Of a DNA stretch of 6,431 nucleotides, positions 849-5,868 are shown in pieces. The DNA lies in contig JACMJT010000531.1 in the NCBI GenBank assembly GCA_014380505.1, positions 1 through 6,431 of the forward strand, in the 5' to 3' direction. The translations under genes were made by a program, and so were the position numbers. The stretch comes from Hyphomicrobiales bacterium. GTDB taxonomy: Bacteria; Pseudomonadota; Alphaproteobacteria; Rhizobiales; Aestuariivirgaceae. Below the pieces are notes generated by a model. The model was not told the origin of the DNA. It did no database searches and saw only the letters and a list, made by a program, of their open reading frames with translations. Position 1 is the first letter of the stretch; every line of letters begins with the position of its first letter.

Positions 849-3782
849 ATGCCACCCGTTCGAAACGTCACCGCCGTGTTGGGACCCACCAACACAGGCA
901 AGACTCACCTCGCGGTTGAGCGCATGCTCGCCCATGGCGGCGGCATGATCGGCCTGCCCCTCAGGCTCCTAGCCCGTGAAATTTATGACCGGGTGCGCTT
1001 GCGCGCGGGCGACGCCGCGGTGGCGCTGATCACTGGCGAAGAAAAAATTATTCCCGCCAACCCTCGCTACTGGGTGTCCACCGTCGAGGCCATGCCCGCC
1101 GATATCGATGTACCGTTTCTGGCAATCGATGAAGTTCAGCTCTGCGCCGATTTCGAGCGTGGCCACATTTTTACCGACCGGGTGTTGCACCGCCGGGGCC
1201 GCGAGGAAACCATGCTGCTGGGTGCCGCCACCATGCGGCCCATCCTCGAAAAACTTCTGCCGGGCACATCTTTCGTGTCGCGGCCGCGCTTTTCCAAACT
1301 CACCTATGCGGGCCACAGGAAGATCACGCGGCTCCCGGGCCGATCCGCCATCGTCGCCTTCTCGGCAGAGACGGTCTACGCCGTGGCTGAACTGATCCGC
1401 AGGCAGCGTGGCGGCGCCGCGGTCGTTCTCGGCGCCCTGTCGCCGCGCACCCGCAACGCGCAAGTGGCCCTCTATCAGTCCGGCGATGTCGACTACATCG
1501 TGGCAACCGACGCAATCGGCATGGGTCTCAACATGGATGTCGACCACGTGGCTTTCGCCGCCACTCGAAAATTCGATGGCTTTCAGCACCGCACTCTCAA
1601 TCCCGGTGAACTGGGCCAAGTGGCGGGCCGCGCCGGCCGCTTTCTCAACGATGGCACCTTCGGCGTCACCGCCGATGCGGACCTGTTCGATGCCGAAACC
1701 GTCGAGCGGCTGGAAAACCACCGCTTCGAGCCGGTGCGCGTTCTCCAATGGCGCAACCGCGATCTCAACTTCGCAACATTGGATCGCCTGCGGCTGAGCC
1801 TCGGTTCACCACCGAAACGCGATGGCCTCACCCGCGCCCAGTCCGGTCCCGACGTAATGGCACTGGAGGCAATGGCTCGCGATAGTGAAATCGTTGATCT
1901 TGCGGCAAGCCCCAAGGATGTTCAGCGACTGTGGGAAGTCTGCCAGATCCCCGACTACCGCAACATCTCGAACTCCGAACATGCGAACCTTGTGGCGTGT
2001 GTGTTCCGGTTCCTGCAAACCGGCCGCGGTTTCATCGACGAGGACTGGTTTTCCCGCCAGCTCAAACATTGCGATGTGTCCGAAGGCGATCTCGATACGC
2101 TTTCCAACCGCATCGCCCATGTCCGCACCTGGACCTTCATTGCCAACCGTGGCGATTGGCTCGAGGCACCCATCTATTGGCAATCCGCTGCCCGCGCGAT
2201 AGAGGACAAGCTATCGGACGCCTTGCATGAACGGCTGACACAGCGTTTTATCGACCGCCGCACCAGTGTTCTGATGAAGCGCCTCGCGGGTAAGGAAGAA
2301 TTGATGTCGACTGTTGAAGACGATGGCGCCCTTCGGGTTGAAGGCGAGTATGTGGGGCGGATCAAGGGATTTCACTTCATACCCGATGGCGTTGCCGAAG
2401 GAACCGAAGCCCGCACCCTGAAGGCCGCGGCCCTCCAGGCCGTCGCCGCCGAGATCGCGGCCCGCGCCAAAGCCGTGGCCGTCTCCGCCGATCCCGATCT
2501 CAAGCTCACTCGCGATGGCCAGATCCTGTGGAACCATGCCGCCATCGGCAGGATCGAGGCCGGAAGCTCGCTTCTCAAGCCCCGCGCCGTCGTCAGCGCC
2601 GGCGATCAGCTCTCGGGCACAGACCGTGACGAGGTCCAGGCGCGTTTGCAAAAATTCCTCGACCGCCATGTCGCCGCAACGCTGGAACCTCTGATCAAGC
2701 TCGAAGAGGGCGAGGGCCTCGATGGCATTGCCCGCGGCATCGCCTTCCGTCTGGTGGAAAACCTTGGCGTGCTGCCGCGCGAACAAGTAGCCACGGAAGT
2801 TAAGTCCCTGAGCCAGGACGACCGCGCCAAACTCCGCGGTTTCGGCATCCGTTTTGGGGCTTTCCATCTGTTCGTGCCGGCCCTGCTCAAACCCGCAGCC
2901 ACTGAACTGCGTCTGCTGCTTTGGGCACTCCAGCTCCAAAAAGACGGCAAACTCGAACTCGGAGCATTGCCCCAACCACCGGGCCAAGGCCTTACCTCCG
3001 CAATCTTCGACCGCGCCACGCCGCGCGGCTTCTACGGCATTTGCGGATATCGGATTTGCGGCAACCGCGTGGTTCGCATCGACATGCTGGAACGGCTAGC
3101 CGATCTGGTGCGCGAGCGAGTGTTCTGGCGTCCGCGCTTTCCCGAAGAACCCCGCCCGGCGGGCTCCGCCGAGGGTGGGGGCTTCACCATCGTCGCCGAC
3201 ATGATGTCGCTGGTGGGCTGTTCCGGCGAGGAGTTCCAGGGAATCCTTCGCAGCCTGGATTTCCGCATGCAGAAGAAGAAAATAAAACGGCCTGTGGTAA
3301 CCCAGGTCGTCGCCGATACGGTGCCGGAGGCTGCGGAAATGCTTGCCGAGCCGGTTCCGGAACCGGCGCCCGAGTTGATTGCTATCGACCCGGTACCGGC
3401 AACTGAACCGTTGGCGGATATCGTGGTGGCGGCCGAACAACCTGCCCCTGCCAACGCACCAATGGAAGAAATCGAAATCGAGGTCTGGTGGCCAAAAGAC
3501 ACTGGACCTTTCCGCCACCGGGCCGAGAAGCAGGCACGGCGCCCCACCCCTGCCAAGTCCCTCGCGGAGCAGAAACCCGCCCCAAGCACCGATACGCAAC
3601 CGGAAGGCGAGCGCCCGCGCCGTGAGGGCCGGCGGCAGCGCGAGGGCAACAAACCCCCACGCCAGCATCAGGCCCCCATCCGAGAGGAACGTGTGGCCCG
3701 GCCGGAAAAGCCCGTGGACCCGGATTCACCCTTTGCAGTGCTCATGGCCCTAAAGGCGAAGATGGCAGGTAACAAAAACTGA
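849..3782 (+). CDS. SUV3-like superfamily 2 DEVQ-box ATP-dependent RNA helicase
   Basis: The 977-residue protein belongs to the alphaproteobacterial helicase family related to mitochondrial SUV3 (SUPV3L1), an ATP-driven RNA unwinder of the RNA-degradation machinery. Helicase motifs in order: I/Walker A GPTNTGKT (12-19), Ia-like GLPLRLLAREIY (35-46), II DEVQ (94-97), III GAATM (125-129), V ATDAIGMGLN (219-228), VI QVAGRAGR (257-264). After the motor core comes a long family-specific middle and C-terminal part up to about residue 808, including LVGCSGEEFQGILRSLDFR (788-806). Residues about 815-955 are low complexity, first Pro/Ala/Glu-rich and then strongly basic, probably disordered. The protein ends with DSPFAVLMALKAKM (959-972), a short segment I recall as conserved in relatives. 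The ATG at 849 places Walker A at residue 12, as in the family, and the frame is closed upstream by TGA at 804-806. No clear ribosome-binding site precedes it. Its substrate here is inferred from family. Confidence 0.93.
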   Translation: MPPVRNVTAVLGPTNTGKTHLAVERMLAHGGGMIGLPLRLLAREIYDRVRLRAGDAAVALITGEEKIIPANPRYWVSTVEAMPADIDVPFLAIDEVQLCADFERGHIFTDRVLHRRGREETMLLGAATMRPILEKLLPGTSFVSRPRFSKLTYAGHRKITRLPGRSAIVAFSAETVYAVAELIRRQRGGAAVVLGALSPRTRNAQVALYQSGDVDYIVATDAIGMGLNMDVDHVAFAATRKFDGFQHRTLNPGELGQVAGRAGRFLNDGTFGVTADADLFDAETVERLENHRFEPVRVLQWRNRDLNFATLDRLRLSLGSPPKRDGLTRAQSGPDVMALEAMARDSEIVDLAASPKDVQRLWEVCQIPDYRNISNSEHANLVACVFRFLQTGRGFIDEDWFSRQLKHCDVSEGDLDTLSNRIAHVRTWTFIANRGDWLEAPIYWQSAARAIEDKLSDALHERLTQRFIDRRTSVLMKRLAGKEELMSTVEDDGALRVEGEYVGRIKGFHFIPDGVAEGTEARTLKAAALQAVAAEIAARAKAVAVSADPDLKLTRDGQILWNHAAIGRIEAGSSLLKPRAVVSAGDQLSGTDRDEVQARLQKFLDRHVAATLEPLIKLEEGEGLDGIARGIAFRLVENLGVLPREQVATEVKSLSQDDRAKLRGFGIRFGAFHLFVPALLKPAATELRLLLWALQLQKDGKLELGALPQPPGQGLTSAIFDRATPRGFYGICGYRICGNRVVRIDMLERLADLVRERVFWRPRFPEEPRPAGSAEGGGFTIVADMMSLVGCSGEEFQGILRSLDFRMQKKKIKRPVVTQVVADTVPEAAEMLAEPVPEPAPELIAIDPVPATEPLADIVVAAEQPAPANAPMEEIEIEVWWPKDTGPFRHRAEKQARRPTPAKSLAEQKPAPSTDTQPEGERPRREGRRQREGNKPPRQHQAPIREERVARPEKPVDPDSPFAVLMALKAKMAGNKN

Positions 3783-3783
3783 C

Positions 3784-4077
3784 GTGGACGACAATGCCCG
3801 CCAGCGCATCGACAAATGGCTCTGGTTCGCCCGGATCGCCAAATCGAGGCCTCTCGCCTCGGGGTTGGTCGAAGCGGGGCATGTCCGTATCAATCGCAAC
3901 AAGGTGACGAAACCCGCACACTCCGTGGGCCCGGGCGATGTCCTTACCATCGCCATCCATGGCCACGTCCGCGTCCTCAAAGTGCTCGCTTGCGGTGCGC
4001 GCCGGGAGTCGGCACCGGTTGCTCAAGCCCTCTATGAGGCGGCCGCCATGACAAATTCGGATGGGCCAGCACCGTAA
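3784..4077 (+). CDS. S4-domain RNA-binding protein, Hsp15 (HslR)-like
   Basis: A 97-residue protein starting at GTG 3784, two bases after the last base of the helicase stop, which suggests translational coupling. No in-frame ATG lies near the start, and the nearest purine-rich stretch (AGG at 3767-3769) is rather far upstream. Residues 8-50 ([37 protein letters not shown]) form the S4 RNA-binding fold. The C-terminal part, with [14 protein letters not shown] (residues about 72-85), matches the region after S4 in Escherichia coli Hsp15. That protein binds 50S subunits carrying stranded peptidyl-tRNA and helps recycle them. The ribosome-rescue role here is by homology only. Its position between an RNA helicase and fdxA is a recurrent alphaproteobacterial arrangement as I recall it. 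Confidence 0.88.
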
Positions 4078-4144
4078 AAAGAGGGTGCAACCGGCACCGG
4101 AACTTGCTAGATATTCGTTCGGTATAAAGAACGGCCTGACCTTC

Positions 4145-4483
4145 ATGACCTACATCGTCAACGACAACTGCATCAAGTGCAAATACATGGATTGCGTGGA
4201 AGTCTGCCCCGTGGACTGTTTCTACGAGGGCGAGAACATGCTGGTGATCCATCCGGACGAATGCATCGATTGCGGCGTTTGCGAGCCCGAATGCCCCGTC
4301 GATGCCATTAAGCCCGACACCGAACCGGGTCTTGAATCCTGGCTCAAGATCAATACGGAATACGCCACCAAGTGGCCCAATATTACGATCAAACGCGAGG
4401 CCCCCGCCGACGCCAAGGAATTTGAAGGTGTCGCGGGCAAGTTCGAGAAGTATTTCTCAGCCGAACCGGGCGAAGGCGACTGA
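4145..4483 (+). CDS. fdxA: Seven-iron ferredoxin FdxA ([3Fe-4S][4Fe-4S])
   Basis: A soluble electron-transfer protein of 112 residues, the usual length for alphaproteobacterial FdxA. It has nine cysteines at 9, 12, 17, 21, 25, 40, 43, 46 and 50, the same spacing as Azotobacter vinelandii ferredoxin I shifted by one residue. By that template Cys9, Cys17 and Cys50 hold the [3Fe-4S] cluster, and Cys21, Cys40, Cys43 and Cys46 hold the [4Fe-4S] cluster. Cys12 and Cys25 remain free. The four-residue gap between Cys12 and Cys17 is the mark of the 7Fe type. The start at ATG 4145 gives the standard MTYIV N-terminus. The frame is open back to an ATG at 4061, which would add 28 unrelated residues overlapping the S4 gene, so I reject that start. 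A weak AAGAACGG (4127-4134) may serve as ribosome-binding site. It lies 67 bases after the S4 gene and is probably in its operon. The redox partner is unknown. Confidence 0.95.
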
Positions 4484-4703: not shown

Positions 4704-4791
4704 CGCCCGGACGGTGCATAAATGGCGAAACCAAGTGGAATCCGCCGTTTTGCCGCAATAATCGGGTAGATCCTTGAATATGTGAAAGGCG

Positions 4792-4796
4792 TAGGA
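4792..4796 (+). promoter_or_regulatory. Ribosome-binding site of carD, fixing the long form
   Basis: TAGGA at 4792-4796 lies five bases before the ATG at 4802. It supports translation from this ATG and therefore the unusual N-terminal extension. Confidence 0.75.
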
Positions 4797-4801
4797 CAAA
4801 A

Positions 4802-5704
4802 ATGACAAAAACCAAGAAGAAGAATACCGCCAGGAAAAAGGCCGTGGCCAGGAAGCCTGCCGCCAAAGCCAAGACCAAGTCGGCGCCAAAGAAAGTCTCG
4901 AAACCGCTGGTGAAGGCCAAGGCGAAAGCCAAGCTGGCGCCTGTCAAGAAGGCTGTCGCCCCGGTCAAGGCGAAAACCAAGCCCGCGCCTGTCAAGACTG
5001 CCGTCAAGCCGATGGTAAAGCCCCCCATGGCAAAACCCGCCGCCGCGGCTGTCAAGCCTGTGATAGCCCAGCCGCAGCGGCCGATGCCCGTCCAGGCTCC
5101 CATGGGAAGGCCCCTGATGACGGGTCCAGTGGTTGCCACGCCCGCTTCCAAGAAGCTTACTTTCAAGATCGGCGACCTCGTCGTTTATCCCGCCCACGGC
5201 GTGGGCCGGGTGACTATGATCGAGGAGCAGGAGATCGCCGGAGCGACACTCGAGCTCTATATCGTCGATTTCGAAAAAGAAAAGCTGCGCCTCAAGGTTC
5301 CCACGGGCCGGGCCGAACAAAAGGGCATGCGCCGGCTTTCGGACAAGGTTCAGATCGAGCAGGCTCTCAGGGTTCTGAAAGGCCGCGCCCGCATCAAGCG
5401 CACCATGTGGTCGAGACGCGCCCAGGAGTATGATGCGAAAATCAACTCCGGCGATCTGATTTCCGTGGCCGAAGTGGTGCGCGATCTTTACCGCTCCGAA
5501 CGCCAGCCCGAACAGTCCTATTCCGAACGCCAGCTGTTTGAGCAGGCGCTGGAACGCATGGCCCGCGAGATCGCGGCCGTGAGAAAGATGGACGACGATC
5601 AGGCGATCAAGGAACTCACGGACTACCTCGTCAAGAACGCCAAGCGGGTGCCCGTGCCGGGCGAGAAATCCGAAGAGGATGCTCCGGCCGAGAAAGCTGC
5701 ATAG
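4802..5704 (+). CDS. carD: CarD/CdnL-family RNA polymerase-binding regulator with long basic N-terminal tail
   Basis: A 300-residue protein in two parts. Residues about 119-282 are a complete CarD/CdnL module. It starts with the Tudor-like RNA polymerase beta-interacting domain (FKIGDLVVYPAHGVGRV, 121-137) and continues with a helical DNA-contacting domain (TMWSRRAQEY, 201-210; SGDLISVAEVVRDLYRS, 216-232; QSYSERQLFEQALERMARE, 238-256). Trp203 corresponds to the tryptophan that wedges into the promoter minor groove in mycobacterial CarD. The family stabilises the open promoter complex, notably at rRNA genes. Residues 1-118 are an extension absent from the 160-200-residue alphaproteobacterial proteins I know. 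It has 26 lysines in the first 80 residues, is rich in Ala and Pro, has no Asp or Glu before Asp125, and resembles histone H1 or AlgP tails. The C-terminus is acidic and ends in Ala-Ala. A good ribosome-binding site supports the start. It is monocistronic, with its own promoter region and terminator. Confidence 0.94.
   Translation: MTKTKKKNTARKKAVARKPAAKAKTKSAPKKVSKPLVKAKAKAKLAPVKKAVAPVKAKTKPAPVKTAVKPMVKPPMAKPAAAAVKPVIAQPQRPMPVQAPMGRPLMTGPVVATPASKKLTFKIGDLVVYPAHGVGRVTMIEEQEIAGATLELYIVDFEKEKLRLKVPTGRAEQKGMRRLSDKVQIEQALRVLKGRARIKRTMWSRRAQEYDAKINSGDLISVAEVVRDLYRSERQPEQSYSERQLFEQALERMAREIAAVRKMDDDQAIKELTDYLVKNAKRVPVPGEKSEEDAPAEKAA
4937..4997 (+). repeat. 13-bp direct repeat inside the carD tail
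   Basis: GCGCCTGTCAAGA occurs at 4937-4949 and 4985-4997, a period of 48 bases or 16 codons. It encodes APVKKAV at residues 46-52 and APVKTAV at residues 62-68. This suggests the tail grew partly by in-frame duplication. Confidence 0.6.
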
Positions 5705-5791: not shown

Positions 5792-5868
5792 GGTCCCGTA
5801 GCTCAGCTGGATAGAGCATCGGTTTCCTAAACCGGGGGTCGCAGGTTCGAATCCTGCCGGGGCCGCCA
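5792..5868 (+). tRNA. tRNA-Arg, anticodon CCU (reads AGG)
   Basis: A 77-base cloverleaf with encoded CCA. The acceptor stem is GGTCCCG (5792-5798) with CGGGGCC (5858-5864), including one T-G pair. The D-stem is GCTC/GAGC. The anticodon stem TCGGT/ACCGG (5819-5823, 5831-5835, including one T-G pair) encloses the loop TTCCTAA with anticodon CCT at 5826-5828. The T-arm is GCAGG-TTCGAAT-CCTGC. The discriminator base is G (5865) and CCA is at 5866-5868. The fold is complete, so the gene should be functional. AGG is a rare arginine codon in GC-rich genomes, and a single gene for this tRNA is usual. Confidence 0.97.

Follow-up and report, generated by a model that had tools for sequence, protein, structure and literature searches.

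The window, i.e. the whole stretch of 6,431 nucleotides that was analysed, carries a CarD/CdnL gene at positions 4802-5704 of the plus strand, which encodes a protein of 300 amino acids. Upstream of this gene lie the genes for a SUV3-type helicase (849-3782), an S4-domain protein (3784-4077) and the ferredoxin FdxA, and downstream of it a gene for tRNA-Arg(CCT) (5792-5868) and the 5' part only of an alpha/beta hydrolase gene (from 5895). FdxA is encoded inside an open reading frame (4061-4483) with about 28 additional N-terminal residues that overlaps with the S4 gene; the FdxA model begins at residue 29 of this frame, near base 4145, which is probably the true start. By eye the helicase shows a long low-complexity C-terminal end with acidic as well as basic stretches. 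The open frame at 3-257 of the minus strand is presumably related to ribosomal protein L28, which it resembles.

The CarD/CdnL protein is assigned to the CdnL type due to its domains and their order. A CarD_TRCF_RID domain, the RNA polymerase-interacting domain (residues 121-179, positions 5162..5338, E 2.4e-14), is followed by a CarD_C domain (residues 188-271, 5363..5614, E 3.7e-25), and both exceed the Pfam cut-offs. The sequence pattern Trp203-Ser-Arg-Arg206 (5408..5419), which represents the conserved Trp and basic patch, is intact. In CdnL this patch has been tied to contact with DNA (PMC4374960, PMC5324124), and among the CarD loci compared in this study W[ST]RR is kept in 96 of 97 with the N-terminal tail described below and in 229 of 232 short ones, duplicates included. 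All 15 solved structures that were matched by sequence belong to the CarD/CdnL family. A protein search revealed a homologue from Aestuariivirga sp. (P0004) that is 82% identical, and several more matches from Aestuariivirga. A Pfam match to RE_HindIII (residues 185-273) was dismissed, as its 19.5 bits lie below the curated cut-off of 25.3. Apart from this match Pfam returned only the CarD domains, and a histone H1 winged-helix globular domain was not found in the protein. Past the core the C-terminus is short and not basic; it ends in Ala-Ala (5696..5701), which may be compared with the protease-sensitive C-terminus reported for Caulobacter CdnL (PMC5324124).

Due to the basic tail of 118 residues that precedes these domains (4802..5155, plus strand), the protein is to be regarded as an extended CdnL and not as a plain standalone CdnL. 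Residues 1-118 comprise 29 Lys, 4 Arg, 25 Ala and 19 Pro, and neither Asp nor Glu. The tail carries a net charge of +33, compared with +2 in the other 182 residues. Given the base composition of the window, 118 codons would yield at least 29 Lys with a binomial chance of about 4e-22. The only GRP (residues 102-104) has no basic residue alongside, so that the tail contains no RGRP AT-hook. An earlier note, made from the letters of the DNA, had described an intact CarD module of the CdnL type behind about 118 residues of Lys/Ala/Pro-rich sequence, with 26 Lys in residues 1-80, Asp125 as the earliest acidic residue of the protein and a tail resembling H1 and not HMGA. Recounting and the domain assignments agree with that description. 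The ribosome-binding site, which the same note had placed at 4792-4796, is indeed present as an SD-like AGGA 5' of the start codon, but spans 4793-4796. The next in-frame stop upstream is found at 4775, and there is no start codon between 4775 and 4802.

An alignment of the 47 nearest proteins indicates which parts of the tail are conserved. The most conserved stretch comprises residues 18-35 (KPAAKAKTKSAPKKVSKP, 4853..4906), within which K18, A21, K22, A23, K24, K26, P29, K30, K31 and P35 are almost invariant. In the linker MTGPVVATPASKK (residues 106-118, 5117..5155) the same holds for M106, P109, V110, V111, P114 and K117, and K118 is invariant; the conservation of the linker is, however, not general across the wider clade. 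In an AlphaFold model calculated from 47 sequences, residues before 126 form neither helix nor strand, and residues 1-120 reach pLDDT values of 41-50 per 10-residue block. The folded part is modelled only moderately, with blocks of 52-83 for residues 121-290 (overall mean 58.5, pTM 0.27). CarD/CdnL chains come top when the predicted fold is compared with the PDB; the match of the whole chain is weak (TM by target at most 0.37), that of the C-terminal domain is good (0.90 to 4kmc). The tail is predicted to be disordered, and the low pLDDT fits disorder without proving it.

The tail is a constant feature of the nearest relatives. Of the 37 genomes in the genus-level group to which the nearest named genome (L001) belongs, 36 encode CarD, and all 32 of the CarD genes read encode a tail; 31 of them were called tailed, and the remaining one (L311) was scored as short for the sole reason that the contig stops within an in-frame K/A/P-rich tail. 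The other four genes have open frames of 305-336 amino acids. In the tree of the CarD cores the window belongs to a clade of 38 tips, which has only tailed members by construction, since it was delimited as the largest clade around the window without a short form. Tails in this clade are 89-149 residues long and have net charges of +23 to +36. They contain 34 acidic residues among 4544, and 730 of their 1096 basic residues are located in the first half of the tail. In one homologue (P0112, 255 amino acids, encoded on a contig of 955 bases) a hydrophobic N-terminal segment stands in place of the basic tail, which may result from the contig edge or from the assembly.

The constraint on the tail was estimated from closely related tailed loci, compared in pairs with a core identity of at least 0.93. 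Where it was computable (some pairs yielded no dS), dN/dS was 0.04-0.39 for the tail and 0.00-0.14 for the core, values which come from gapped alignments of repetitive sequence that can depress dN, and with a tail dS above the core dS in most pairs. That the ratio of the tail is well below one in these relatives argues for translation of the whole tail. In 18 pairs, hand-picked from this set and not all independent, 2148 aligned tail residues comprise 15 Lys/Arg exchanges versus a single Lys/Glu exchange, and a charge-blind aligner gave 13 versus 1 over 2162 residues. Counting single-nucleotide exchanges only, the numbers are 8 versus 0, and 7 versus 0 with the charge-blind aligner. As a Lys codon can be changed to Arg as well as to Glu by one A-to-G exchange, this points to positive charge being kept. 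Other charge-losing differences are present in the tails of the same 18 pairs, namely 13 Lys/Thr and 9 Ala/Glu.

These data also bear on the question whether the tail could be an artefact of the start codon, in which case translation would begin at Met101 or Met106 and leave out the tail. Such a start would suit the near invariance of Met106 among the 47 nearest proteins, the GGAAGG upstream of it in the window and the annotation of one homologue (P0063) as a protein of 195 amino acids starting from the Met106 equivalent. However, the conservation at the codon level runs through the tail, only nine of the 38 clade members (the window counted) have a Met 13-14 residues ahead of the core, and the GGAAGG of the window is not common to the other eight. 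Tail calling itself rarely produces such sequences by chance: when short loci were read in shifted frames or upstream, a K-tail was called in only 1 of 226 and 3 of 1332 readings, respectively. A wrongly chosen start is thus an unlikely source of the tail, and it is extremely improbable that the tail is never made. The rarity of the Met and the unshared GGAAGG also led us to reject an internal short isoform starting from Met106 for the clade of 38 as a whole, although the nearest relatives of the window may have one.

CarD_C was found in 337 of 385 class-level genomes. One CarD per genome is the usual number (333 of the 337 positive class-level genomes, and nine of nine genomes in one set); more than one CarD_C match was seen in G104, G121, G128, G166, G407, G450 and G463. 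Among the best-scoring 150 CarD matches of the class, which are for that reason not a random sample, 35 have a Lys-rich N-terminal tail of 56-267 residues with a net charge of +10 to +77. Fewer than 40 residues, usually 3-15, precede the core in 114 of the 150, and one has another kind of long N-terminus. One of the short loci (L230) and one of the tailed loci (L256) are cut by the contig end, and the open frame of a further tailed locus (L213) has no start codon. All tails are N-terminal; a C-terminal basic tail was not seen among the alphaproteobacterial CarD loci read.

Tails are also encoded by 15 of 40 family-level and 6 of 37 order-level loci, and by 18 of 80 named loci, the latter chosen by likeness to the core of the window. 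The 18 tailed named loci, two of which (L021 and L069) are cut by the contig end, include seven from Hyphomicrobiaceae (among them Hyphomicrobium and Filomicrobium) and five from Parvularculaceae as well as Bradyrhizobium, Methylocystis, Devosia and others, while 45 of the 62 short ones belong to Rhizobiaceae or Phyllobacteriaceae. Another of the 18, titled Hydrogenedentota (L075), falls beside Bradyrhizobium in the tree, and its contig may have been misbinned. The tails of the five Parvularculaceae (L030, L044, L057, L060, L076) contain 49-64 Lys and, judged by eye, a VGQ-x-PR motif of their own near the core, which differs from the motif of the window clade. The CarD proteins of the Bradyrhizobium type (L038, L075, L168) carry in addition to the tail a long Asp/Glu-rich C-terminus of 41-43 residues past the core, and this acidic end could rival DNA for the basic tail.

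The tree used here is a FastTree tree of the CarD cores (at most 165 residues) and comprises 321 of 331 rows; genome duplicates, second CarD copies, contig-edge loci and cores below 120 residues were omitted. The tailed class loci fall on several separate branches of it. By parsimony the fewest changes between tailed and short forms are 25 (shuffled mean 79), 15 if branches below 90 are collapsed (52) and 6 if those below 95 are collapsed (33), counts in which gain cannot be separated from loss. They make several separate gains or losses of the tail likely, in a number that depends on the branches kept. The earlier note had suspected that a single lineage evolved a CarD-like architecture in reverse order. 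The reverse order stands, but since tails occur in 35 of the best 150 class loci they are not special to one lineage, and the N-terminal lengths of the relatives, placed on the tree, indicate that the extension is recurrent in the class. As a cause for the N-terminal placement a C-terminal degron was considered and rejected. In the class sample, with identical proteins entered a single time, the chain ends in AA or VA in 21 of 35 tailed and 97 of 112 short proteins; over all loci the numbers are 76 of 94 and 203 of 220. The tailed proteins thus retain this end less often, and the degron idea is not supported.

We favour, with a probability of about 0.6, the explanation that the disordered polycation adds a non-specific anchor on DNA and so raises the dwell of CdnL on promoters or on the nucleoid. 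Like CdnL elsewhere, the folded part should bind the beta lobe of the polymerase and stabilise the open promoter. The tail would probably contact the DNA phosphate without specificity, in the manner of the H1 C-terminal region, and this contact would increase the local concentration of CdnL, alone or in complex with the polymerase, at promoter or nucleoid DNA and prolong its stay there. As CdnL is usually single in a genome, the tailed protein must normally do the ordinary CdnL work. Purifying selection, the conservation of charge and the predicted disorder would all agree with a DNA-binding tail.

Several published observations can be set beside the proposed anchor. The extra basic disordered domain of Myxococcus CarD is reported to raise activity (PMC4374960), and to be replaceable by histone H1 or by the H1 C-terminal region (PMC8156234). 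Caulobacter CdnL is described as binding DNA weakly and without specificity (PMC5324124). HupS offers an analogous tail in its lysine-repeat domain, and acetylation is reported to reduce the affinity of HupS for DNA (PMC11229371). It counts against the anchor that tail length and sequence vary strongly, that charge-losing exchanges such as Lys/Thr and Ala/Glu are present, and that the core job is possible without a tail, as 114 of the best 150 class loci are short. An extension at the N-terminus is also not obviously harmless, since in Caulobacter no strain could reportedly be obtained in which the sole CdnL was N-terminally FLAG-tagged (PMC5324124). A further-reaching idea, which we put forward tentatively and consider doubtful, is that CdnL, the general co-activator of RNA polymerase, was repeatedly made chromatin-like in Alphaproteobacteria by an N-terminal tail of the H1 type. 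The CdnL of these species, usually the sole one, would then be nucleoid-bound in itself and might couple the opening of rRNA promoters to the state of the nucleoid, perhaps through acetylation of Lys.

The tail might also be a near-neutral low-complexity sequence without a specific task. Slippage in K/A/P codons would lengthen a short N-terminus that is already basic, and selection would purge only harmful, i.e. acidic or hydrophobic, changes. The spread of lengths within a single clade (89-149 residues) and the scatter of gains or losses, with a minimum of 25 changes on the tree, would both suit such a process, and at least two Lys are present in the first 10 residues of 41% of the 114 short class forms. 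Lys-rich C-termini are moreover found on the topoisomerase I of all 18 alphaproteobacterial genomes inspected (L331-L348), whose last 110 residues contain 12-32 Lys; given as plain ranges, these are 19-32 in the 8 genomes with and 12-24 in the 10 genomes without a CarD tail. Such tails may therefore be a cheap general habit, which would also weaken the case for an anchor, and the ranges show no link specific to the genomes with a CarD tail. A tail dN/dS well below one, the near absence of K/E exchange and the presence of the tail in all 32 CarD genes that were read out of 36 in the nearest genus-level group all speak against neutrality, which we consider unlikely. In place of DNA, the tail could bind RNA or an acidic surface on RNA polymerase or sigma, or it could promote the clustering of polymerase with rRNA operons. 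Disordered polycations generally bind polyanions, and the tail adjoins the polymerase-binding domain. CdnL is furthermore known to work at rRNA promoters (PMC5324124). By eye, however, the tailed clades have no motif in common, which makes a specific protein partner less likely, and we regard a protein or RNA target as quite improbable.

Transcription of rRNA and housekeeping genes has a core regulator in CdnL/CarD. That K/A/P tails have appeared repeatedly on this one module in Alphaproteobacteria suggests that they are readily added, and the tailed and tail-less relatives form a natural comparative set for the use of H1-like tails in bacterial transcription. The paper on Caulobacter CdnL calls alphaproteobacterial CdnL highly conserved, and the word "extension" is absent from its main text (PMC5324124). 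In the open-licence literature, which omits most subscription journals, we found no description of N-terminal basic tails on alphaproteobacterial CdnL.

Compared with known systems, the protein of the window shares with Caulobacter CdnL and other standalone alphaproteobacterial CdnL proteins the same kind of core, the Trp and basic patch and the C-terminal Ala-Ala, but these proteins have no long basic tail. Mycobacterial HupB and Streptomyces HupS likewise combine a long Lys-rich tail with a protein acting on DNA. They are, however, HU-type proteins, and the tail of HupS is C-terminal, whereas in the window the tail is joined to a polymerase-binding protein. The HMGA-like CarD of Myxococcus xanthus, to which the earlier note had compared the protein, has an extra basic disordered domain as well, which maximises activity there (PMC4374960). 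It differs by its C-terminal acidic segment and four RGRP AT-hooks, the latter being absent from the tail of the window, and M. xanthus possesses CarD alongside a separate CdnL, while the tailed alphaproteobacterial relatives are usually without a second CdnL.

The comparison with M. xanthus is valid but incomplete, since H1-like C-terminal tails are described for CarD of Anaeromyxobacter dehalogenans and Vulgatibacter incomptus (PMC9304148). As in the window, a polymerase-binding module is combined there with a K/A/P-rich tail without AT-hooks, which in these two species binds DNA (PMC9304148). In contrast to the window their tail is C-terminal, and their CarD shares an operon with its partner CarG, while CarG is absent among the annotated neighbours of CarD/CdnL in the window (fdxA, tRNA-Arg and the alpha/beta hydrolase). 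H1-like CarD tails are thus already known, and those that we found described are C-terminal and myxobacterial; the N-terminal version of the Alphaproteobacteria appears to be new, and its chief interest lies in its recurrence in the reversed domain order.
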